Of a DNA stretch of 64,000 nucleotides, positions 25,107-34,643 are shown one piece after another. The translations under genes were made by a program, and so were the position numbers. The number at the start of each line of letters is the position of its first letter. The stretch's first letter is position 1. This stretch comes from Pseudodesulfovibrio portus (GTDB lineage Bacteria; Desulfobacterota; Desulfovibrionia; Desulfovibrionales; Desulfovibrionaceae): the NCBI RefSeq assembly GCF_026000375.1, contig NZ_AP026708.1:3198001-3262000 (forward strand), given 5' to 3'. The notes under the pieces were generated by a model, which saw only the letters and a list, made by a program, of their open reading frames with translations, was not told where the DNA came from and ran no database searches.

Positions 25107-25183
25107 ATTGTCCGGAGTGCCAACCTCATGGGACGGGAGGCGATGTCCCCGAGACCGAATCTTGGGGCGGATGATGGGAAATG

Positions 25184-25219
25184 CCTCCCGGGGCCGGGGG
25201 GCAGTCCGACCCCGGGAGG
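25184..25219 (-). terminator. Hairpin at the end of the transporter operon
   Basis: CCTCCCGGGG (25184-25193) and CCCCGGGAGG (25210-25219) form a perfect 10-bp GC-rich stem just after the stop of the 102-residue membrane protein. It separates that operon from the kinase-like gene. The T tract is poor, so it may be a partial terminator. Confidence 0.5.
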
Positions 25220-25222
25220 ATT

Positions 25223-25531
25223 TTAGAATCCGGATTGGCTCTGGACGTCGGGTTCACGGTATTCACCGAAATCGTTGCGCTTCAATCCGGCGTAGATCAG
25301 GGCTGCCAAGGTGGTGCACATGAACGTTCCCAGCAGGACCGGGGAGGACCAGTCGATGTTCAGCCACCAATCGCCGGAGGTCTCGTGCATCACGGTCAGG
25401 AAGACGCCGGGCCATTCGTTGACCACGCCGATGTACTGGTAGAGCAGGGTGAAGCCCAGCGTAAGATAGGTGATGGCTCCCAGCCCCACGAAGAAGTGGC
25501 GGAACATGTTCTTGAGCAATTTGATGTCCAT
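25223..25531 (-). CDS. Small membrane protein, last gene of the YeiH operon
   Basis: The 102-residue protein has two predicted helices (FFVGLGAITYLTLGFTLLYQ and SPVLLGTFMCTTLAALIYAG) joined by a loop rich in Trp (SGDWWLNIDWSS), and a hydrophilic C-terminal tail. I recognise no family. It starts ten bases after the preceding gene in a tight same-strand operon with a long YeiH-type transporter and UspA, so it is probably an accessory membrane subunit. Function is unknown. Confidence 0.8.
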   Translation of the reverse strand: MDIKLLKNMFRHFFVGLGAITYLTLGFTLLYQYIGVVNEWPGVFLTVMHETSGDWWLNIDWSSPVLLGTFMCTTLAALIYAGLKRNDFGEYREPDVQSQSGF

Positions 25532-25540
25532 GGTGCCCCC

Positions 25541-26149
25541 TTATGCGCCGTAGTAGAACCAGCCCACACCCAGGATGAGGATGAGCAGGCATTCCAGCAC
25601 GGTGAGCTTGAACATGAAGCCGCAGATCCGGCGTTGGGTCGGGTTCATGGTCAGCAGGATCTTGTTCATGAAGAAACGCCAGGTCCTGTGCTTGAGCGAG
25701 TCGGACTCATAGAGGCGATAGTACTCGCGCAGGCTCGGTAGCCAATACTGCATGGTGCGTTGGGCGTCTTCGACAGTGAAGGACGCGCCCCTGGCCGGGG
25801 TGATGGCAAAAGACACTGCCGTGTTCGTCCCCTTGTCGCAGGAGCGTGCCGACAGGGTCAGGCCGATCTCCGGGAACGCGGCCGTGAAGGTGCCGCCATC
25901 GCGTGAAAGCCTGGGCGCGACGTTGAATTCGCTCTCCACAAGCACATCTTCCACGGGGTAGGTCCCGTCAGAAAATTTGTCCATGTGCCAGTGCGGGTTG
26001 AGGCGCATCAGGGTCATGTTGCGGAGGGAATCCCAGAAATCGGGATTCCAGGCCAGGTTGGTCTCCATCCAAACGTTTGCGCGGGGAAGTTCTTCCGCCT
26101 CCACATGGGCGAGGTCTCTACGGTCTATGGTCTCAGTTGCATTGGTCAT
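25541..26149 (-). CDS. Hypothetical protein with a C-terminal membrane helix, YeiH operon
   Basis: The 202-residue product has a hydrophilic body (MTNATETIDRRDLAHVEAEE, then PRANVWMETNLAWNPDFWDS). It contains a Trp/Tyr-rich segment TMQYWLPSLREYYRLYESDS and ends in one helix, FKLTVLECLLILILGVGWFY. It therefore appears to be a cytoplasmic domain tethered by its C-terminus. I do not recognise the family. The start is fixed by an ATGA overlap with the UspA stop (26146-26149), which shows translational coupling. Its place between UspA and a two-helix protein suggests a membrane complex with the transporter, by inference. Confidence 0.82.
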   Translation of the reverse strand: MTNATETIDRRDLAHVEAEELPRANVWMETNLAWNPDFWDSLRNMTLMRLNPHWHMDKFSDGTYPVEDVLVESEFNVAPRLSRDGGTFTAAFPEIGLTLSARSCDKGTNTAVSFAITPARGASFTVEDAQRTMQYWLPSLREYYRLYESDSLKHRTWRFFMNKILLTMNPTQRRICGFMFKLTVLECLLILILGVGWFYYGA

Positions 26150-26589
26150 GGCGCCACCACCAGAGGGCATGGCATCTGCGGGTGCAGACGCTTGTTTTCG
26201 AAACGGTCCTTGAAGCCGGGAGCCTGGACTTTCTGCCAGGTGCCCATGATCGCCACGTCGGCACCGGTCTTTTCCGCCGCTTCGGCAAGCACCTCTTCGA
26301 GCTTGCCGCCCTTGCTGAGGAAGTCGATGTCGACGCCTTCGAAATCGGTCCGGACGCGGTTCCACACGGCATCGATCTCCTTGGCGATCTCTCCGGCTAC
26401 GTAAGAGCCGAAGTTGTTGCGCGTGGTGGACGTGTTGAGCCAGTCGTCGCAGGTCATGTCGCCCCAGGCCTCGTTGATGATGGACAGGACGGTGACTTTT
26501 GCGCCGTAGGCGTCGGCCCATTGCCGGGCGAGTCGCTCAGCCTTGCGGGCTCCGGGGGTGCCGTGTGTGGCGAGAAGGATATGCTTCAT
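26146..26589 (-). CDS. UspA-family universal stress protein
   Basis: The 147-residue protein begins MKHILLATHGTPGARKAERL and includes AKVTVLSIINEAW and the family's late GADVAIMGTWQK segment followed by the C-terminal strand CPLVVAP. The layout is the single-domain universal stress protein fold, a cytoplasmic nucleotide-binding alpha/beta domain. The G-x2-G-x9-G-(S/T) ATP loop is only partly recognisable, so ATP binding is uncertain. UspA domains often regulate transporters encoded next to them, and here the gene sits in an operon with a YeiH-like transporter. The ATG at 26589 is preferred over an in-frame upstream start, because that extension would begin inside the intercistronic hairpin region. 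Confidence 0.85.
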   Translation of the reverse strand: MKHILLATHGTPGARKAERLARQWADAYGAKVTVLSIINEAWGDMTCDDWLNTSTTRNNFGSYVAGEIAKEIDAVWNRVRTDFEGVDIDFLSKGGKLEEVLAEAAEKTGADVAIMGTWQKVQAPGFKDRFENKRLHPQMPCPLVVAP

Positions 26590-26611
26590 GACGAAATTCT
26601 TTTTAATGGGT

Positions 26612-26652
26612 GCCGCAACCGGAGGAGGCACGGTGCCTCCTCCGGTTGCGGC
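26612..26652 (-). promoter_or_regulatory. Perfect 19-bp intercistronic hairpin in the YeiH operon
   Basis: A 19-base arm (26612-26630) pairs perfectly with its reverse complement (26634-26652) around a three-base loop. It lies between the stop of the 55-residue membrane peptide gene and the UspA start. No T tract follows in the direction of transcription. It therefore looks more like an RNA-processing, stability or attenuation element than a plain terminator. Confidence 0.65.
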
Positions 26653-26669
26653 GAGAGGAGTTTATGTGG

Positions 26670-26837
26670 TTACGCAATCCACTTGGTGAACAGCAGGACC
26701 AGGAAGGTTACCACGAGGACCAGACCCAGAGCGGTGAGGTCTTCGTTCTTTTCGGATGCGAAGACGGACAGTGCGCGTTCCTCGTTCTGTTCCTGATCGG
26801 ACTTATCTATTTCGCAATTGACATCAGGCTGTGCCAT
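26670..26837 (-). CDS. 55-residue single-helix membrane peptide between YeiH-like and UspA genes
   Basis: A short frame begins with ATG at 26837 behind a strong AAGGAG and encodes 55 residues. An acidic N-terminal half (MAQPDVNCEIDKSDQEQNEE, then RALSVFASEKNE) is followed by one hydrophobic helix (LTALGLVLVVTFLVLLF) and the end TKWIA. It starts 12 bases after the transporter stop. The good ribosome site, helix and position argue that it is real. Small single-helix proteins often bind and regulate the transporter encoded beside them, so a regulatory subunit is the natural inference. No known family was recognised. Confidence 0.8.
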   Translation of the reverse strand: MAQPDVNCEIDKSDQEQNEERALSVFASEKNEDLTALGLVLVVTFLVLLFTKWIA

Positions 26838-26849
26838 TTTCTTTCTCCT

Positions 26850-28490
26850 TTAGTGAAGGACGACGTCTTTGACGAAGTACATGACGACGATGAAGGACAG
26901 GGTGGCCTTGGCCACACCGGAGATGCCGCCCATGACGAGAGGCCAGCCGCCGGCCTGGGCGAGGGACTTGCGGGTGATCTGCATTCCGAGACCGATGAGG
27001 CCGTATGCGAAGAACCAGATCATGCAGTCGGTCAGGGTGACGACGGTCTTGGACTTCTTGTGCACCTGCTTGACCGCGTGCTTGATGGCGGACGTCACGT
27101 CCTTGGAAATGGACAGCTCTCCGCCCTTGGCGCGGGCGAGCATGGATTCCAGGCCGGACATGCGCTGACGCGCGGTTGCATCGAATGCGGACTTGTTCTC
27201 GCGGTCTTCAAAGTTGCCGGCGATCTGATGCTGCTTGACGAGGTTGTCGAAGGCAGCCTGTTCATCGGCGTTGAGGCCGGGAATTCCTGCGGTTTGAGCC
27301 TGTTGCAGGATGGTCAGTTCCTCAGGGGTGACCTCGGTGCGCTGGTTGTAGCTGAAATCGAGGTACTTACCCTTGTAGTGGCCCGGAGGGGAGAAAACGC
27401 CCATGGAGGACATGAAGAAGAGCAGCAGGAAGCCCAGGATGAAGATGGGGAACTTGTCGATGACAACTTCCTTGAAGGACAGCTTCTGACCGGATGCCTT
27501 GCCGAACCAGGTGGCGAGCACCAGGACGATGATGGGCAGGAACAGGACACGGGTGATGTTGAAGATCTCGCCGACCTTCAGGGTCTTGATGTCCACGGCG
27601 TTGAAGGCAAGGCAGGCGGCAGCGACCTGAGCGGAGTTCAGGATGCCGGTGCCGGCCCATGCGCCGAATTGGGTGGCGTTCATGCCCGCAAGCTTGCCGA
27701 TGGTCGGGAAGGCGAACATGCAGAGAATACCGAAGCCCAGGATGGTGCCGATGGTGTAGGCCATCTCGGAGCACTTGGCCTTGACGACCGGGGCGCATGC
27801 GACGGTTGCGGACACGCCGCACACGCCCATGCCTGCGGACAGGACGCCGGTCATGGTCTTGGGCTGCTTGAAGATCTTGCCCAGGAACAGGACGAAGAAA
27901 ACGGTACCCAGGACGAAGAAACCGATCATCCAGACGGAGACCATGCCCAGCTTTGCCAGTTCGGCGAAGGAGTACCGGGCACCGAGCAGGATGACGCCCA
28001 TCTTGAGGACGAAGCGGGCGGTCTTGACGCCGGAAGCGGCGAATTTGGGGATGCCCCAGCTGTTGGTGATGATGATGCCGACGATGATGCCGAGGACGAC
28101 GTAGTTAAGATTAAGAACCTTGTAGATTGCGAAACCGAGAACGGGTGCCAGGGAGTCGCTCGCGATCTTGACCATCGGCTCCGCAAACCAGCGGATGCCC
28201 ATGGCCAGGGCCAGAATGAACAGGATGCCCGGAATGGTTTCAAGGACGAAGACGTCCAGTTTGCCCATGGGCTTGTTCATTCGGGACTGGCGAATCAGTG
28301 CGGTGACAACGCCGAGACCGCCGCCGACGAAGCACATGGTTTCCATGAGCTCGATGGCTTTGTGAACCTTGAATGTGGTCAACAGACCGGTGAGCACTCC
28401 CGATGCTACGAGGGCACCCAAGATCAGCAGTATGCCACTGATGATCCAGGTGGGTGTATTGTCGGGGCGACCGACGGAAACATTTGCCAT
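26850..28490 (-). CDS. Long-form YeiH/UPF0324-type membrane transporter (putative sulfate/sulfonate exporter family)
   Basis: The 546-residue protein has about eleven hydrophobic helices. Conserved stretches of the YeiH/Cons_hypoth698 family are visible: KMGVILLGARYSFAELAKLG, the GVCGVSATVACAPVVKAKCS segment with its small-residue turn, TIGTILGFGILCMFAFPTIG, and FGAWAGTGILNSAQVAAACL. E. coli YeiH is about 350 residues. This protein is longer because of a hydrophilic insertion (about residues 375-470, from HYKGKYLDFSYNQRTEVTPE) before the last helices. The family is annotated as putative sulfate exporters, mainly by prediction. The start at 28490 has AAGGAG upstream. It is the first gene of an operon preceded by a near-perfect sigma-54 promoter. 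Confidence 0.85.
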   Translation of the reverse strand: MANVSVGRPDNTPTWIISGILLILGALVASGVLTGLLTTFKVHKAIELMETMCFVGGGLGVVTALIRQSRMNKPMGKLDVFVLETIPGILFILALAMGIRWFAEPMVKIASDSLAPVLGFAIYKVLNLNYVVLGIIVGIIITNSWGIPKFAASGVKTARFVLKMGVILLGARYSFAELAKLGMVSVWMIGFFVLGTVFFVLFLGKIFKQPKTMTGVLSAGMGVCGVSATVACAPVVKAKCSEMAYTIGTILGFGILCMFAFPTIGKLAGMNATQFGAWAGTGILNSAQVAAACLAFNAVDIKTLKVGEIFNITRVLFLPIIVLVLATWFGKASGQKLSFKEVVIDKFPIFILGFLLLFFMSSMGVFSPPGHYKGKYLDFSYNQRTEVTPEELTILQQAQTAGIPGLNADEQAAFDNLVKQHQIAGNFEDRENKSAFDATARQRMSGLESMLARAKGGELSISKDVTSAIKHAVKQVHKKSKTVVTLTDCMIWFFAYGLIGLGMQITRKSLAQAGGWPLVMGGISGVAKATLSFIVVMYFVKDVVLH

Positions 28491-28620: not shown

Positions 28621-28659
28621 TGCAAACTTGAGTTTGCAGTTGCTAACCTTGGGTTTGCA
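28621..28659. promoter_or_regulatory. Tandem palindromic sites upstream of the sigma-54 promoter (activator binding)
   Basis: TGCAAACTTGAGTTTGCA (28621-28638) is a perfect inverted repeat. A close copy, TGCTAACCTTGGGTTTGCA, follows at 28641-28659. Their centres are about two helical turns apart, and they lie 65-103 bases upstream of the -24 box, the usual place for an NtrC-type upstream activating sequence. The adjacent response regulator (31209) is the obvious candidate ligand. Confidence 0.75.
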
Positions 28660-28782: not shown

Positions 28783-31212
28783 ATGGCGAATCTCGGACCG
28801 AAAAAACTCCAGGCCAAGTTCCTTGTGGGCCTTGGCACCATCGTTTTGCTGTTGGGCGTCTTCTTCGCCTCCAGCCTCTATTTCCATCTCTCGTCCCTGT
28901 TGGACACCCAGGTGCGCGAAAAGGCGGACCTCATGTTCGCCCAGGTGTCGAGCGTGCAGAGCTATGTGCGCGAGGTCCTGCGCCCGAAGATGTTTGCTTC
29001 CCTGCCGGATGACGAATTCATCATCGAGGCCATGTCTTCATCATATATGTCCCGCGCCATTATGGACCGGCTGGATTTGCCTCAGTCGGAATACCACTAT
29101 CGCCGCGTGGCCGAGAACGCCCGCAACCCGCTCTACGAGATCAATCCCGAGGAAAAGGATCTGCTCGCCCTGTTCAGGGCCAATCCCGGCATGATGTACT
29201 GGGAGGGATACCGGCAGGTGAAGGGATCGGATTATTTCGTCAAGGCGCGCCCGGTCATCTTCAAACAGTCCTGCCTTACCTGTCACGGCGATCCGGTCGA
29301 TTCCCCGCCGGTGCTCATCGAGCGGTACGGCGTGGACCACGGATTCGGCCATGAGCGCGACGCCCTGGACGGTCTGGTTGTCGTCGGTATCCCGGTGGAG
29401 CAGGCCGTGGCCCGCATCCGCGAGGCGACGATGGGTTACGCCGCTCTGTACGGCGCCGGGATGCTCATCTTCTTCGCTCTGGTACAGGCCTTTTTCAACC
29501 GGCTGATCATGACCAACCTGCGGCGGCTGACCGCGAAGTTCCGCAACCTGTTCGACGAAGAGCCGGAATTGCGGGTTTTGGAGAAGCTGAACCAGGAAGA
29601 CGAGATCGAAGAAGTCGTGCAGGGGCTGGAGGAGCTTGGCGACCATCTTCATTCCGTTCACTCGCAGCTCCGGCAGCACTCCGAGAATCTGGAGGAGATG
29701 GTCGTGGTCCGGACCAGCGAGTTGCAGCAGGAAGCCGACGAGCGCCGTTCGGACGTGTCCCTGTTCGTTCAACTGTTGGACGGCCTGAACCGCAGCCACA
29801 ACCGGCGCGAAATGTGGAAATACTCCCTGCCGCTGCTGGTGAAGCGCTTCAACGCCCGGTCCGCCGGATTCATCTGCATGTTCGCCTCGCGCGGTTATTA
29901 CACTTACCCCGAGGGGCTGCCGCGCCCCGAGTTGCCGGAGAACTGGAAGGAGATCCTGGTGGATTCCCGGTCGTTCTACGAGGATAACCGTGCCTTCATA
30001 CCGGTGGGCGCGTCCGATGAGTTCACCGAGGGCATACTGTATCTCGAATGGGAGCCGGAAACCCGCATCAAGGTCAAGGATCAGGACATTCTCCGCGCCC
30101 TTGGCCAGCAGCTCGGCATCGCCATGGAGAACCTGTCCGCCCTGAACAATCTGCTGCGGCAGAAGGACATGCTGCAGGGCATCGTCGAGGGTATCGGCGA
30201 TCCGCTCCTGCTCATGGATGCGGGCGGCAACGTGGTCCTCGCCAACGAGGCCGCGCGCCGTCTCGCCAAGTCCCTGGACGGGTCCATGACCGACGAGGGG
30301 TGCGCCGCGCTCTTCAAGTCCGGCGGCTCGTTCGAGGAATTTCCCGTGCGGGCCGCCCAGAAGTCGGGGATGCTCATGTCCCACACGGTGGACGTGGGCG
30401 ACCGCCACTTCGTCATCAGCATCTTCCCCATCGCGGGCGGCGAGTCAGGTGAAGGACAGGGCGTCGTCTACGTTCGCGACGTGACCCAGGAACGGCATAT
30501 GCTGGAAACCATGCAGCAGAGCGAGAAACTGGCCACCGTGGGCCAGCTCGCAGCCGGTCTTGCCCACGAGATGAACAACCCGCTCGGCGTCATCAAATGC
30601 TACGCCGAGCTGCTCAAGACCTCGGTCCCCGGCCAGGAGATCAGGCCCGACGCCGAGATCATTCTCAAGCACGCCACCCAGGCGCAGAACGTCCTTCAGG
30701 ATCTGCTTAATTTCGCCCGGCCCAAGCGGGCGGTCCAGGCCCGGCTCGACGTGGGCGGCGTGGTGGCGGACGCCATGTCCGTGTTCCGCGTGCAGGCCGA
30801 CAAGAAGGGCGTGACCCTGCTCCTGACCGTGGGCGACGGGTTGCCGGACGTCATGGCCAACGAGCAGTACGTGGAACAGATCATCGCCAACCTGCTCAAG
30901 AACGCCCTGGACGCCGTGGTTTCCGAAACGGGCCGCATCGAGGTGGGGGCCGAGCTCGACGCCAAGGCGGGCATGGTGGTCCTCCGGGTGGCTGACAATG
31001 GCCCGGGCGTGCCGGAAGAGCATCTCAAGTCCCTGTTCGATCCCTTCTTCTCCACCAAGGAAGTGGGTGAGGGGACCGGGCTGGGGCTGGCCGTGGTCTA
31101 TGGGCTCGTCCAGGAGATGGGCGGGGCGATCCGCGTAGGAAACCATGGCGGCGCTGTGTTCGAGATCCGGCTGCCCGTGGACGAAACCCAATCGGGGGGA
31201 GGTGAGGAATGA
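28783..31212 (+). CDS. Membrane sensor histidine kinase with periplasmic c-type haem motif
   Basis: The 809-residue kinase has these parts: a membrane helix (about residues 16-37); a periplasmic sensor of DUF3365/Tll0287-like type with a covalent haem motif CLTCH at residues 164-168 in FKQSCLTCHGDP; and a second helix near 222-241 followed by a HAMP-like linker and coiled coil. A GAF-like region (about 330-460) and a PAS domain (about 465-570) come next. HisKA follows with His595 in GLAHEMNNPLGVIKCYAELL, then HATPase (NLLKNALDAV, DNGPGVPEEHL, GTGLGLAVVYGLV). Haem sensors of this type can respond to redox state or gaseous ligands; the signal here is unknown. Its stop overlaps the regulator start (ATGA). 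It is divergent to the YeiH operon, its likely target. Confidence 0.92.
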   Translation: MANLGPKKLQAKFLVGLGTIVLLLGVFFASSLYFHLSSLLDTQVREKADLMFAQVSSVQSYVREVLRPKMFASLPDDEFIIEAMSSSYMSRAIMDRLDLPQSEYHYRRVAENARNPLYEINPEEKDLLALFRANPGMMYWEGYRQVKGSDYFVKARPVIFKQSCLTCHGDPVDSPPVLIERYGVDHGFGHERDALDGLVVVGIPVEQAVARIREATMGYAALYGAGMLIFFALVQAFFNRLIMTNLRRLTAKFRNLFDEEPELRVLEKLNQEDEIEEVVQGLEELGDHLHSVHSQLRQHSENLEEMVVVRTSELQQEADERRSDVSLFVQLLDGLNRSHNRREMWKYSLPLLVKRFNARSAGFICMFASRGYYTYPEGLPRPELPENWKEILVDSRSFYEDNRAFIPVGASDEFTEGILYLEWEPETRIKVKDQDILRALGQQLGIAMENLSALNNLLRQKDMLQGIVEGIGDPLLLMDAGGNVVLANEAARRLAKSLDGSMTDEGCAALFKSGGSFEEFPVRAAQKSGMLMSHTVDVGDRHFVISIFPIAGGESGEGQGVVYVRDVTQERHMLETMQQSEKLATVGQLAAGLAHEMNNPLGVIKCYAELLKTSVPGQEIRPDAEIILKHATQAQNVLQDLLNFARPKRAVQARLDVGGVVADAMSVFRVQADKKGVTLLLTVGDGLPDVMANEQYVEQIIANLLKNALDAVVSETGRIEVGAELDAKAGMVVLRVADNGPGVPEEHLKSLFDPFFSTKEVGEGTGLGLAVVYGLVQEMGGAIRVGNHGGAVFEIRLPVDETQSGGGEE

Positions 31213-32606
31213 GCCGCCAGGTAGGCATCTTGCTTGTCGACGATGAGAAGGACTTTGCCGTGGGGCTGGCCCGTCTTCTGGGACGACGTTTCCCCGAGGA
31301 GCGCATCAAGGCCGTGAATTCCGGCGACGATGCGCTCCGGGAACTCGCGCGCGAGTCCTACGGCCTGCTGCTCACCGACCTGAACATGCCCGGCATGGAC
31401 GGCGCGGAGCTGCTGCGCCAGGCCAGGGCGGCCAAGCCCGACCTGAGCGTCGTCATACTCACGGCCTACGGCACCGTGCCCACGGCCGTGGACGCCCTCA
31501 AGGACGGCGCCTACGACTTTCTGGTCAAGCCGGTGGAGCCGGACGCCCTGTTTCAGGTGGTGGAGCGCGGCCTGGAACGCAGTTCCCTGTTGAGCGAGAA
31601 CTCCCGTTTGCAGGAACTGGTTGCCCGCCAGTGCGGGGCCAACGAGCTGGTCGGGGATTCCCTGGCCATCCGCCGCCTGAAGGAGAGCGTGGCCGCCGTG
31701 TCCGAGTCGGACTACACCGTACTCGTGCGGGGCGAATCGGGCACCGGCAAGGAACTGGTGGCCCGCACCATCCACCGGCTCAGCGGCAGGCGCAAGGGCC
31801 CCATGCTCATGGTCAACTGCCCGGCCATCCCGGACCAGTTGCTTGAGAGCGAGTTGTTCGGCCACGTCAAGGGTGCGTTCACGGGTGCCGACCGCGACCG
31901 CAAGGGCATATTCGTCTCCGCCAACGGGGGCACGCTCATGCTGGACGAGATCGGCGACGTGTCGCCCGCCATCCAGACCAAACTGCTGCGCGTGCTGCAG
32001 GAGGGGGAGGTCCGTCCCGTGGGGTCGAGCAAAACCTTTCCGGTCGATGTGCGCATCATCGCCTCCACCAATCAGCCCCTGGAAGAGAAGATCAAGGACA
32101 ACACGTTTCGCGAGGATCTTTACTACCGCCTCAATGTCCTGACGCTGAACGTTCCGGCCCTGCGGGAGCGGAGTGAGGATATCCCCGTGCTTGCCCACTA
32201 TTTCCTTGAAAAGGCGTGCGAGGAGATGAAGGTGTGTCCCAAATTCTTCAATCCCGACGGAGTGGCCTATCTCTCCACAAAAAGCTGGCCGGGCAATGTC
32301 CGCGAGTTGCAGAATTTCATTCGAAGGCTGGCCGTGTTCTCTGCCGGAGAATCCCTCGAGTTGGGCCACATCAAATTGGTGGAGAAGCTGAACGGTGCGC
32401 CGGGCGACAAAGATGAACCGGAGGTGATGCTCTTCAAGGACGCCAAGGAAAAGATCATAGACGACTTCACCCGCGCCTATGTCGAGGAGTTGTTGGCGAA
32501 CACCCGCGGCAATGTCTCACAGGCTGCCAGAGAGAGCGGCTTGTCCCGTGTCGCCCTGCAAAAGATACTCAAACGGCTGGAGATCGATGCCGGTCACTTC
32601 AAGTAG
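31209..32606 (+). CDS. Sigma-54-dependent response regulator (NtrC family)
   Basis: The 465-residue protein has a receiver domain with phospho-acceptor Asp57 in GLLLTDLNMPGMDG. The AAA+ domain has Walker A GESGTGKE (about residue 175), the sigma-54-contacting GAFTGA loop (about 222) and Walker B-like GGTLMLDEIGDV. A C-terminal Fis-type helix-turn-helix (NTRGNVSQAARESGLSRVAL) completes it. It should be phosphorylated by the overlapping haem-sensor kinase and drive sigma-54 promoters. A consensus sigma-54 promoter with tandem palindromes lies just upstream of the divergent YeiH operon, so that operon is its most likely target. Confidence 0.95.
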   Translation: MSRQVGILLVDDEKDFAVGLARLLGRRFPEERIKAVNSGDDALRELARESYGLLLTDLNMPGMDGAELLRQARAAKPDLSVVILTAYGTVPTAVDALKDGAYDFLVKPVEPDALFQVVERGLERSSLLSENSRLQELVARQCGANELVGDSLAIRRLKESVAAVSESDYTVLVRGESGTGKELVARTIHRLSGRRKGPMLMVNCPAIPDQLLESELFGHVKGAFTGADRDRKGIFVSANGGTLMLDEIGDVSPAIQTKLLRVLQEGEVRPVGSSKTFPVDVRIIASTNQPLEEKIKDNTFREDLYYRLNVLTLNVPALRERSEDIPVLAHYFLEKACEEMKVCPKFFNPDGVAYLSTKSWPGNVRELQNFIRRLAVFSAGESLELGHIKLVEKLNGAPGDKDEPEVMLFKDAKEKIIDDFTRAYVEELLANTRGNVSQAARESGLSRVALQKILKRLEIDAGHFK

Positions 32607-32771: not shown

Positions 32772-33554
32772 TCAGCGTCTTTTGTTGCGCAGGCCGGCGA
32801 GGCCGATCAGGCCGGAGGCGAGGAGCCAGATGGCGCCGGGGACGGGGGCGGCGTTGAGGTGTTGCGCTCCCGTGACTTCCGTGAGGCTCATGGTGTTAAA
32901 GAAATCATTGGAGAAGGAGTCGACCTCGCTCCCGCCCCACAGGATGCTGCCGTAGCCGGTCCCCAACTTGAGACCGAGGACAAAATCCGTTCCGGCAGCC
33001 AAATTGAGATTCAGCGTGTACGAATTGTCGACGGCCATGCTCCCGGCAGATGTCAACTGTGTCGTCAGTTCATTTATGGTGTTGTTCTCGACAAAGTTCC
33101 ACTGCGTGCCGTCGTAGGCATAGAGGGAATAGACCAAATCCTGGCCGACGCTGTAAAAGCCGCCCGGTTCGGTAGGCGTCCCCATCTGCAGGGAGCCTTC
33201 GATGTCGATTTGAAATGATTGGGTGTTCCCGGTGGCTCTGTAGGCCTGATACAATCCGGCATAGGCCCAGGAGGTATAGTCATCCAGGACGTTGCTCCCG
33301 GCGCTGGAAACGCCCAACTGGTTGGTGCCGGCCTTGAAGGAGCGCGCGACGTTGTACCCATTGTTTGGGTCGGTTCGTTGGATGGCGGATGAAGATCGGT
33401 TGGCCGCGTATACCTCGTCCTCGACCCAGAACACGTCATCATACCCGATATAGTCCGGTGTGTAGGAGGTTACGGCAAACGCATTGCCGGCCAGGCCGAT
33501 CACCAAGACTACAGCCGCTACAAACATCAAAATGCATTTCGGATGTCTAGACAT
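32772..33554 (-). CDS. Secreted PEP-CTERM-like protein
   Basis: The 260-residue protein has a signal peptide (residues 1-27, CILMFVAAVVLVIGLAGNAF) and a Ser/Thr/Asn/Tyr-rich beta-type body with no recognised domain. The sorting tail is APVPGAIWLLASGLIGLAGL followed by RNKRR. The tail is nearly identical to that of the neighbouring protein (33714) and close to that at 16014, so all three should be handled by the same exosortase. AAGGGA precedes the chosen ATG at 33554; frames further upstream lack one. It is likely a surface- or matrix-attached protein of unknown role. Confidence 0.83.
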   Translation of the reverse strand: MSRHPKCILMFVAAVVLVIGLAGNAFAVTSYTPDYIGYDDVFWVEDEVYAANRSSSAIQRTDPNNGYNVARSFKAGTNQLGVSSAGSNVLDDYTSWAYAGLYQAYRATGNTQSFQIDIEGSLQMGTPTEPGGFYSVGQDLVYSLYAYDGTQWNFVENNTINELTTQLTSAGSMAVDNSYTLNLNLAAGTDFVLGLKLGTGYGSILWGGSEVDSFSNDFFNTMSLTEVTGAQHLNAAPVPGAIWLLASGLIGLAGLRNKRR

Positions 33555-33713
33555 AAGTCCCTTCCCTGAACTTGAATTAACGGCCTTCATTCTGCGGATG
33601 AGTCTATGGACACTTGCCACAGCCTGAAAGGCTCTTTTCCCGCCTATTCCCGCCAAATTTATTCAAAGTGCAGAGTGCACTGCGATATCCGAGAGCTTGC
33701 GCCCTCGATATGG

Positions 33714-34367
33714 TCAGAGCATTTTTCCGCGCAGTCCGGCGAGGCCGATCAGGCCGGAAGCGAGGAGCCAGATGGCGCCGGGTACGGGCGTGATCTGCGG
33801 CCTGGTGGACGTCCCCTGAAGAAAGGTCGGGTCAAGGTGCATGTCGGTGGAGCGGTAATAGGAGAGGTCGGAGCGGGACTCGCCCCAGAGTTCGTGATTG
33901 AGGCGGGCGGTTTCCCCCGGTTCGAACATGAAGGTGAAGGAGTCGAGGACGATGGAATTGCCTGTTGCCCCAAGGGCCACCACATCGTTGCCGGGATAAT
34001 TGTTTAGGGCCGTGTGGATCTCTGTGTAATCACCCACGGCGCTGGGAGTGTAGTATGGCGCTTGCAGATTCCCGCCCACATACTCTGCGTAATAGTATGT
34101 CGTGTACGGGGTGTTGGACGGGTACTCCGCGACCACGCCGGTGGTGGTGATTACCATCTTGTACGCATAGCTGGAGAAGATGTCGGTATCCACCCCGATA
34201 TACATGGTCAGGGGGTCGCCGACAGCGTAGTCGAGCGGAGCCTCTGCGTCTTCGTAGAGGGAAGTGACCGTCCCGACGAGTTTGTAGTACTGGATGGCGG
34301 CATTTGCCGATGGGGCAAAGGCTATGACTGCGATCAGCAACAGGCTGGTGAAAACGATCCTGCGCAT
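33714..34367 (-). CDS. Secreted PEP-CTERM-like protein
   Basis: The 217-residue product begins with a signal peptide (MRRIVFTSLLLIAVIAFAPS, cleavage near ANA). A tyrosine-rich body of unknown fold (VDTDIFSSYAYKMVITTTGV and TYYYAEYVGGNLQAPYYTPS) follows, ending in the sorting tail TPVPGAIWLLASGLIGLAGL then RGKML. GGGAGGAACAACC before the ATG at 34367 supports this start. It precedes the other PEP-CTERM-like gene on the same strand with a 160-base gap, so the two may be a paralogous pair or co-regulated. The exosortase itself is not in the window. Confidence 0.83.
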   Translation of the reverse strand: MRRIVFTSLLLIAVIAFAPSANAAIQYYKLVGTVTSLYEDAEAPLDYAVGDPLTMYIGVDTDIFSSYAYKMVITTTGVVAEYPSNTPYTTYYYAEYVGGNLQAPYYTPSAVGDYTEIHTALNNYPGNDVVALGATGNSIVLDSFTFMFEPGETARLNHELWGESRSDLSYYRSTDMHLDPTFLQGTSTRPQITPVPGAIWLLASGLIGLAGLRGKML

Positions 34368-34643
34368 GGTTGTTCCTCCCCGGCTGCTTAATTCATTGCA
34401 TTCGCCGACATGGGGCAGGCATGCTTCCACGGCCACGCCACCAAGTCTCCGCACCATGCAGACGGCGTGGTGCGGCACATAATGATTCGTTATGGCAACC
34501 CCCTCAAAGGTGTTGATTGGTTGATTCAAGCAAAAAATATGCAAGTTTATTCATTTTGAGTGGTTGTATTAAGCCTCAAACAGAATAAACTTCGTTTTCC
34601 GTTTTTTTCGGATTTCCGACCGTCGGGAACGGGCGAGGAAAAG

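Follow-up and report, generated by a model that had tools for sequence, protein, structure and literature searches.

A conserved YeiH-family transporter operon with a haem-Cache sensor kinase in Pseudodesulfovibrio portus and its possible role in sulfur-oxyanion transport

We analyzed a stretch of 64,000 nucleotides (nt) of Pseudodesulfovibrio portus DNA (contig NZ_AP026708.1, positions 3,198,001 to 3,262,000, forward strand), called the window below, and found in it a transporter operon, yeiH-p55-uspA-p202-p102, which on sequence evidence is a real, conserved gene cluster of sulfate-reducing bacteria. All five open reading frames lie at 25223-28490 on the minus strand, where a first-pass annotation had placed them, and the overlapping or nearly overlapping junctions that it described were confirmed (listed below). 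The unit is larger than these five genes, as a haem-Cache histidine kinase, a sigma54-dependent regulator and a Ser/Thr-kinase-like gene are also members; the five-gene make-up first proposed thus stood for each of its members but left out three genes that belong. The architecture and regulation of the cluster are well supported by sequence comparison. Transport substrate and direction we infer, sulfite being suggested by a Salmonella yeiH phenotype and by an association with dsrA. As a whole, the scenario of a regulated multi-subunit YeiH/putative sulfate exporter (PSE) transporter, gated by UspA, induced by a haem signal and handling a sulfur oxyanion, most likely by sulfite efflux, seems to us about evenly balanced between right and wrong. 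The genes and sites of the system are as follows.

28490-26850, minus strand: YeiH/PSE-family transporter, 546 amino acids (aa), ATG start; PF03601, 160.8 bits against a cut-off of 24.5
27051..27386, minus strand: hydrophilic insertion in YeiH, codons about 369-480, between two transmembrane (TM) helices; none in short YeiH proteins
26837-26670, minus strand: p55, single-helix peptide, 55 aa; 12-nt gap after yeiH
26589-26146, minus strand: UspA-family protein, 147 aa from ATG, 161 aa from GTG; PF00582, 30.4 bits against a cut-off of 24
26149-25541, minus strand: p202, predicted SRPBCC (helix-grip)-like domain and C-terminal TM anchor; 4-nt ATGA overlap with uspA
25531-25223, minus strand: p102, two-TM protein; 9-nt gap after p202
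25179-25223, minus strand: strong RNA hairpin with a weak U tail, between p102 and the kinase-like gene; fold z-score -3.3 over 25110-25235
25106-23823, minus strand: Ser/Thr-kinase-like protein, 427 aa, HRN for HRD; PF00069, 58.6 bits
28541..28556, minus strand: putative sigma54 promoter TGGCACGAGCCTTGCC, at -66 from the yeiH start
28621..28638, minus strand: presumed operator palindrome TGCAAACTCAAGTTTGCA, about 80 nt upstream of the sigma54 promoter
28641..28659, minus strand: second, imperfect operator copy TGCAAACCCAAGGTTAGCA, direct reading
28783-31212, plus strand: histidine kinase with periplasmic haem-Cache (Tll0287/DUF3365) domain; PF11845, 111 bits, HisKA, HATPase_c
29272..29286, plus strand: CLTCH haem c attachment motif in the sensor region of the histidine kinase
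31209-32606, plus strand: NtrC-type sigma54-dependent response regulator; PF00158, 229 bits, PF00072, HTH_8; 4-nt overlap with the kinase gene

The small proteins had been proposed as constant partners of the transporter, and a neighborhood check agreed with this. Across 60 genomes (the window's own genome, its genus and its order), an identical set of 21 carried all four of the 546-aa-type YeiH, p55, p202 and p102, so that the refuting condition first set out, neighborhoods without the small proteins, did not refute the proposal. Gene order was kept in the 41 loci examined (a few interrupted by contig ends), reaching Desulfobulbaceae and Desulfosarcina: YeiH-p55-UspA-p202 followed one another wherever the contig extended, kinase and regulator adjoined them, and the kinase-like gene lay downstream in most loci, its family occurring in 31 of the 39 clustered loci, the window counted. 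Among the named genomes scanned, this type of YeiH occurred in Pseudodesulfovibrio, Salidesulfovibrio, Desulfonauticus, Desulfobulbaceae, Desulfosarcina and one metagenome-assembled genome of the Thermodesulfobacteriaceae. This conserved gene set and order bear out the first suggestion of a regulated membrane-transport unit.

Median identities between the window proteins and their Desulfobacterales orthologues were 69% for YeiH, 56% for p55, 48% for the regulator, 38% for UspA, 31% for the kinase, 26% for p202 and 20% for the kinase-like protein, making p55 second only to YeiH in long-range conservation. Within YeiH, core residues 119-368 shared 84% and the insertion 54%. Transporter and micropeptide evolve the most slowly, as expected if p55 packs against YeiH. 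Outside Desulfovibrionales, a different two-TM protein of about 92 aa was encoded upstream of YeiH. The proposal that p102 forms one family with the Desulfobulbaceae two-TM protein at this position, and with a protein of about 92 aa that follows a 590-aa YeiH (see below), was dropped, as profile comparison showed no homology.

The transporter matched the YeiH/putative sulfate exporter family profile (TC 2.A.98) and fell below the cut-off of the TIGR00698 subfamily (89 bits vs 232.6), so that it is a PF03601 relative and not a YeiH in the narrow sense. Its hydrophilic insertion, which had been called unusual, recurred in all 33 aligned orthologues and was predicted to be helical, with a predicted local distance difference test score (pLDDT) of 71-85 for residues 381-450 in a model that was otherwise poor. 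Searches of PDB sequences with YeiH and p202 returned no matches. By hydropathy, p55 has one TM helix, p202 one at its C-terminus and p102 two; none of the three had a Pfam match above threshold. In p55 a conserved ALSVFxSEKNEDLTAL motif precedes the helix. The ATP-type G-2x-G-9x-G(S/T/N) motif was absent from the window UspA and all its orthologues.

An AlphaFold (AF2) model of p202, built from 33 orthologues (pLDDT 86.7), ran from two short helices through seven strands and a long helix to a further helix and the C-terminal TM helix. Its Foldseek matches were AHSA1-like, polyketide-cyclase and CoxG proteins, at E 4e-4 to 2e-2 with modest TM-scores of about 0.3-0.5. The tail anchor seen in the first-pass annotation was confirmed, and what had been missed was a folded domain, predicted to be a membrane-held SRPBCC-like domain (START/Bet v1-like superfamily). 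The SRPBCC proteins CoxG and AHSA1 (PDB 8uds, 2lcg) share this predicted helix-grip fold, and CoxG is likewise anchored to the membrane by its C-terminus, whereas sequence similarity to p202 was undetectable and the structural scores remained in the modest range just given. When 395 genomes from the phylum were searched, a p202 profile matched at six places, and the four outside the 546-aa clade all adjoined YeiH and UspA.

The link to a haem sensor was supported by the conserved divergent kinase and regulator, by the sigma54 promoter and by a unique operator. The sensor region of the histidine kinase holds CLTCH and no further Cys, and CXXCH was retained in all intact orthologues. With PF11845 over its cut-off, CXXCH, no axial Cys and fusion to a kinase, it has the features of signalling-type sCache_heme/Tll0287 proteins, which it shares with the described nitric oxide (NO) sensor domains, fused to signalling modules (PMC12889525). 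One signalling-type haem-Cache domain without an axial Cys binds NO tightly and forms no stable oxygen complex (PMC12889525), and by analogy NO may be the signal of the window kinase. Unlike the described NO sensor domains, the haem-Cache here is tied to a YeiH transporter, and the operon of Desulfobulbaceae holds a second copy, joined to a Ser/Thr kinase domain.

A scoring scan located the sigma54 promoters, with an equivalent element at -53 to -81 in Desulfovibrionales loci, Desulfonauticus excepted. The palindrome lay at -129 to -163 in Desulfovibrionales loci, most of which differed from the consensus TGCWAACYNNRGTTWGCA at no more than one position (L068 at two, L069 and L090 at three), and the scores in these loci were reached by no or almost no shuffles. 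In the 3.4-Mb genome it was the sole site when as many as two mismatches were allowed; the reversed control pattern gave three sites per strand. Because of its position and co-conservation, the palindrome is presumably the operator that the regulator binds.

The kinase-like protein lacks the catalytic Asp of the HRD motif, reading HRN in the window and HRN, HRC, HRS or HRG among near Pseudodesulfovibrio relatives; the Desulfonauticus and Desulfobulbaceae orthologues have an intact HxDLKPEN. Kinase-type control probably came first, and the window protein is probably a pseudokinase scaffold. Assignment to the antiphage MAD6 family (NCBIfam) was rejected as a generic kinase match (85 bits vs a cut-off of 460). 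The protein is perhaps made in a lower amount, because the strong hairpin separates its gene from p102; this hairpin is very stable, GC-rich and without a good U tract, and is a possible attenuator or processing site. The operon of Desulfobulbaceae and relatives adds an active-looking Ser/Thr kinase bearing its own UspA domain, a calcineurin-like phosphoesterase, a haem-Cache/Ser/Thr kinase fusion and, in some, a radical-SAM protein. The fusion was seen in L088 (12109-14535, about 5.3-7.8 kb past the yeiH start; clusters F8 and F9), where the Tll0287 domain is joined to a Ser/Thr protein kinase domain, and also in L080-L082, L085, L087, L092 and L152. It shares the operon with YeiH and adjoins the phosphoesterase, and is an unusual haem-sensing Hanks-type kinase.

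Phylum-wide, YeiH relatives were recurrently accompanied by a single-helix peptide and UspA proteins, and sometimes by p202. Members of the order without the cluster often carry another long YeiH of about 590 aa, whose insertion lies near the N-terminus. It adjoins a homologous haem kinase (identity about 40-45% in closer cases, about 31% otherwise), a regulator (46-58%) and a membrane protein of about 92 aa, with a related operator in many loci. YeiH-family transporters with very different accessory genes retain homologous haem kinase, regulator and related operator. Two such 590-aa-type genes lay within 10 kb in L100 and L101, with sigma54 regulators and a haem kinase, a pair of related multi-helix membrane proteins of about 240 aa and a protein of about 111 aa.

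Short YeiH proteins (about 360-400 aa) were followed by a one-helix peptide of 28-35 or 131-135 aa and then by UspA. Profile searches recovered p55 relatives adjoining YeiH in L149 (E 2.5e-8) and L156 (E 2.9e-7), with weaker matches in L106, L154 and L155 (E 1e-4 to 9e-4); the 28-35-aa peptides are linked to the p55 family through position and motif alone. Nearly all aligned YeiH-associated one-helix peptides have [FL]-x-[ST]-x-[RK]-x-[EQ]-D directly ahead of the helix. The 28-35-residue peptides (LSxSRKQDL and a TM helix) were seen between the short YeiH gene and UspA in L107, L113, L114, L115, L116, L126 and L127, and are likely to be unannotated in most genomes owing to their size. In L108 a distant YeiH (390 aa) is immediately followed by a 50-aa single-helix peptide. 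In L106, L128, L129, L154 and L155 a biotinyl/lipoyl-like (barrel-sandwich) domain stands behind the helix of the one-helix partner (PF13533 in the L106 protein).

More tentatively, and with somewhat less confidence than we have in the scenario for the window, Desulfobacterota YeiH carriers may be hetero-oligomeric secondary transporters, composed of YeiH, an obligatory single-helix micropeptide and UspA, often with a tail-anchored SRPBCC protein, with haem two-component induction and with Ser/Thr (pseudo)kinase/phosphatase gating by haem-kinase fusions. In the mechanism that we propose for the window, the periplasmic c-haem domain would sense NO or a related redox signal and the sigma54 regulator would turn the yeiH operon on. 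YeiH would be flanked by p55 (and by p102 in Desulfovibrionales) as membrane subunits, and tail-anchored p202 and the YeiH insertion would make the face through which the pump is gated by UspA and the (pseudo)kinase. The pump would export a sulfur oxyanion, most likely sulfite, when dissimilatory sulfite reductase is impaired.

Deletion of yeiH in Salmonella gave a sulfite sensitivity about 20 times that of wild type, not explained by sulfite reductases, and YeiH was the main sulfite-resistance factor (PMC12880088). In the phylum, dsrA was over its cut-off in 16 of 17 genomes with YeiH near these clades (the window genome included) vs 188 of 395 overall (Fisher’s exact test p = 5e-5, kinship ignored). 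On these two lines, sulfite export by the window pump is plausible. In Desulfovibrio vulgaris, DVU0539-DVU0545 encode a kinase, a regulator, two UspA proteins, a PSE/YeiH transporter and a one-helix protein of 133 aa; the cluster has molybdate phenotypes, and no function has been assigned to it. When molybdate is present, the cells need kinase DVU0540 and UspA DVU0542, whereas the transporter and its small partner do harm (PMC10102598). Judged by these phenotypes, UspA seems to hold back an oxyanion carrier.

Several points weigh against sulfite efflux under a haem-switched operon. The Salmonella data show resistance, not efflux (PMC12880088). NO sensing is known from one signalling-type protein of Pseudomonas azotoformans, in a preprint (PMC12889525), and the D. 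vulgaris regulators bind lactate-utilization promoters too (PMC3333781). The operator was unrecognizable upstream of Desulfobulbaceae operons, p102 was not found outside Desulfovibrionales in the loci examined, and the AlphaFold model of YeiH was poor (pLDDT 55.7 from 33 near-identical rows).

The same complex could instead import a sulfur oxyanion (sulfite, thiosulfate, sulfonate or sulfate) as a respiratory substrate, with UspA and the kinase closing it whenever this anion, or an analogue of it, is toxic. The harm done by the D. vulgaris transporter genes under molybdate is consistent with toxic-analogue uptake, and YeiH carriers are mostly dsrA-positive; the sole YeiH phenotype with a defined anion is nevertheless protection from sulfite, seen also in strains without sulfite reductases, and we regard import as unlikely. 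The PSE name ‘exporter’ comes from annotation alone. A carboxylate or bicarbonate carrier linked to lactate/pyruvate metabolism, and not to sulfur, would fit the binding of DVU0539 to a lactate operon and a lactate permease promoter. However, the validated DVU0539 motif occurs in a mere subset of its DAP-chip (DNA-affinity-purified chip) hits, the window operator has a single occurrence in its own genome, so that no lactate gene shares it here, and the YeiH phenotype concerns sulfite, which makes such a carrier quite improbable. A pump that expels nitrite, as a nitrogen oxyanion, or some other product of nitrosative stress would suit an NO-type sensor, given the tight NO binding of the haem-Cache signalling protein. 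The literature found gives no YeiH with a nitrogen-oxyanion phenotype, however, and no nitrite or NO gene was recognized among the most conserved annotated neighbor families, and we think this more doubtful still. That the genes are chance neighbors without joint function, for which nothing was found, is refuted almost beyond question by the identical presence and absence of four of them over 60 genomes and by an order conserved across orders.

Sulfite is a toxic intermediate of sulfate respiration, and a dedicated haem-switched sulfite transporter conserved across the phylum, if real, would offer a testable explanation of its control. It would also give functions to the D. vulgaris molybdate-responsive cluster, to UspA proteins and to overlooked membrane peptides of 28-135 residues. 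Should the hetero-oligomeric class hold, it would provide the first sulfite efflux pump to be gated by a micropeptide and UspA and controlled by an NO/redox haem sensor. Apart from the operon, two neighboring secreted proteins encoded past the regulator gene (window 32772-34544) end in VPGAIWLLASGLIGLAGLR, a PEP-CTERM-like sorting signal.

In the TeaD-TeaABC system, a UspA protein is encoded with a secondary transporter (TRAP type, for ectoine) that it is thought to regulate; TeaD binds ATP, and the window UspA lacks the ATP-type motif. The YeiE-YeiH system of Salmonella and Escherichia coli (PMC12880088) shares with the window the transporter family PF03601 and a divergently encoded regulator, which there is a sulfite-binding LysR protein and here a sigma54 regulator. 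E. coli YeiH has 349 aa and no insertion, and is directly followed by nfo, with no peptide, UspA or kinase. A survey of sulfate transporters in sulfate reducers does not mention the YeiH/PSE family (PMC5840216). The ‘nitrate cluster’ DVU0245-0251 of D. vulgaris and D. alaskensis (PMC4001038) was rejected as a relative, as it has a TauE-type transporter and a differing gene set.

The closest counterpart is DVU0539-DVU0545, which has the same core (PMC10102598), so that the first-pass view of the make-up as undescribed is not supported. Both have a divergent kinase and sigma54 regulator, UspA, a PSE/YeiH transporter and an adjoining one-helix protein, and by gene content and operator the window belongs to this type of module, the published cluster being compared by its description. 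In D. vulgaris, as proposed for the window, the regulator activates the transporter operon; the related regulators DVU0539 and DVU0946 have one shared binding motif and activate the DVU0542 promoter (PMC3333781). DVU0539-DVU0545 differs in its pair of UspA genes and its one-helix protein of 133 aa, where the window has one UspA and p55, and p202, p102 and the kinase-like gene are absent from it as published. The gene order of L154 (UspA, YeiH, a 135-aa peptide and UspA, with divergent kinase and regulator) is that of DVU0539-DVU0545. Both the transporter family and that of the sensor were already known, as was a D. vulgaris cluster sharing this core; new, as far as the literature found shows, are the micropeptide/UspA/p202 core as a recurring module, the haem kinase and operator as a common switch, and the kinase/phosphatase elaboration.

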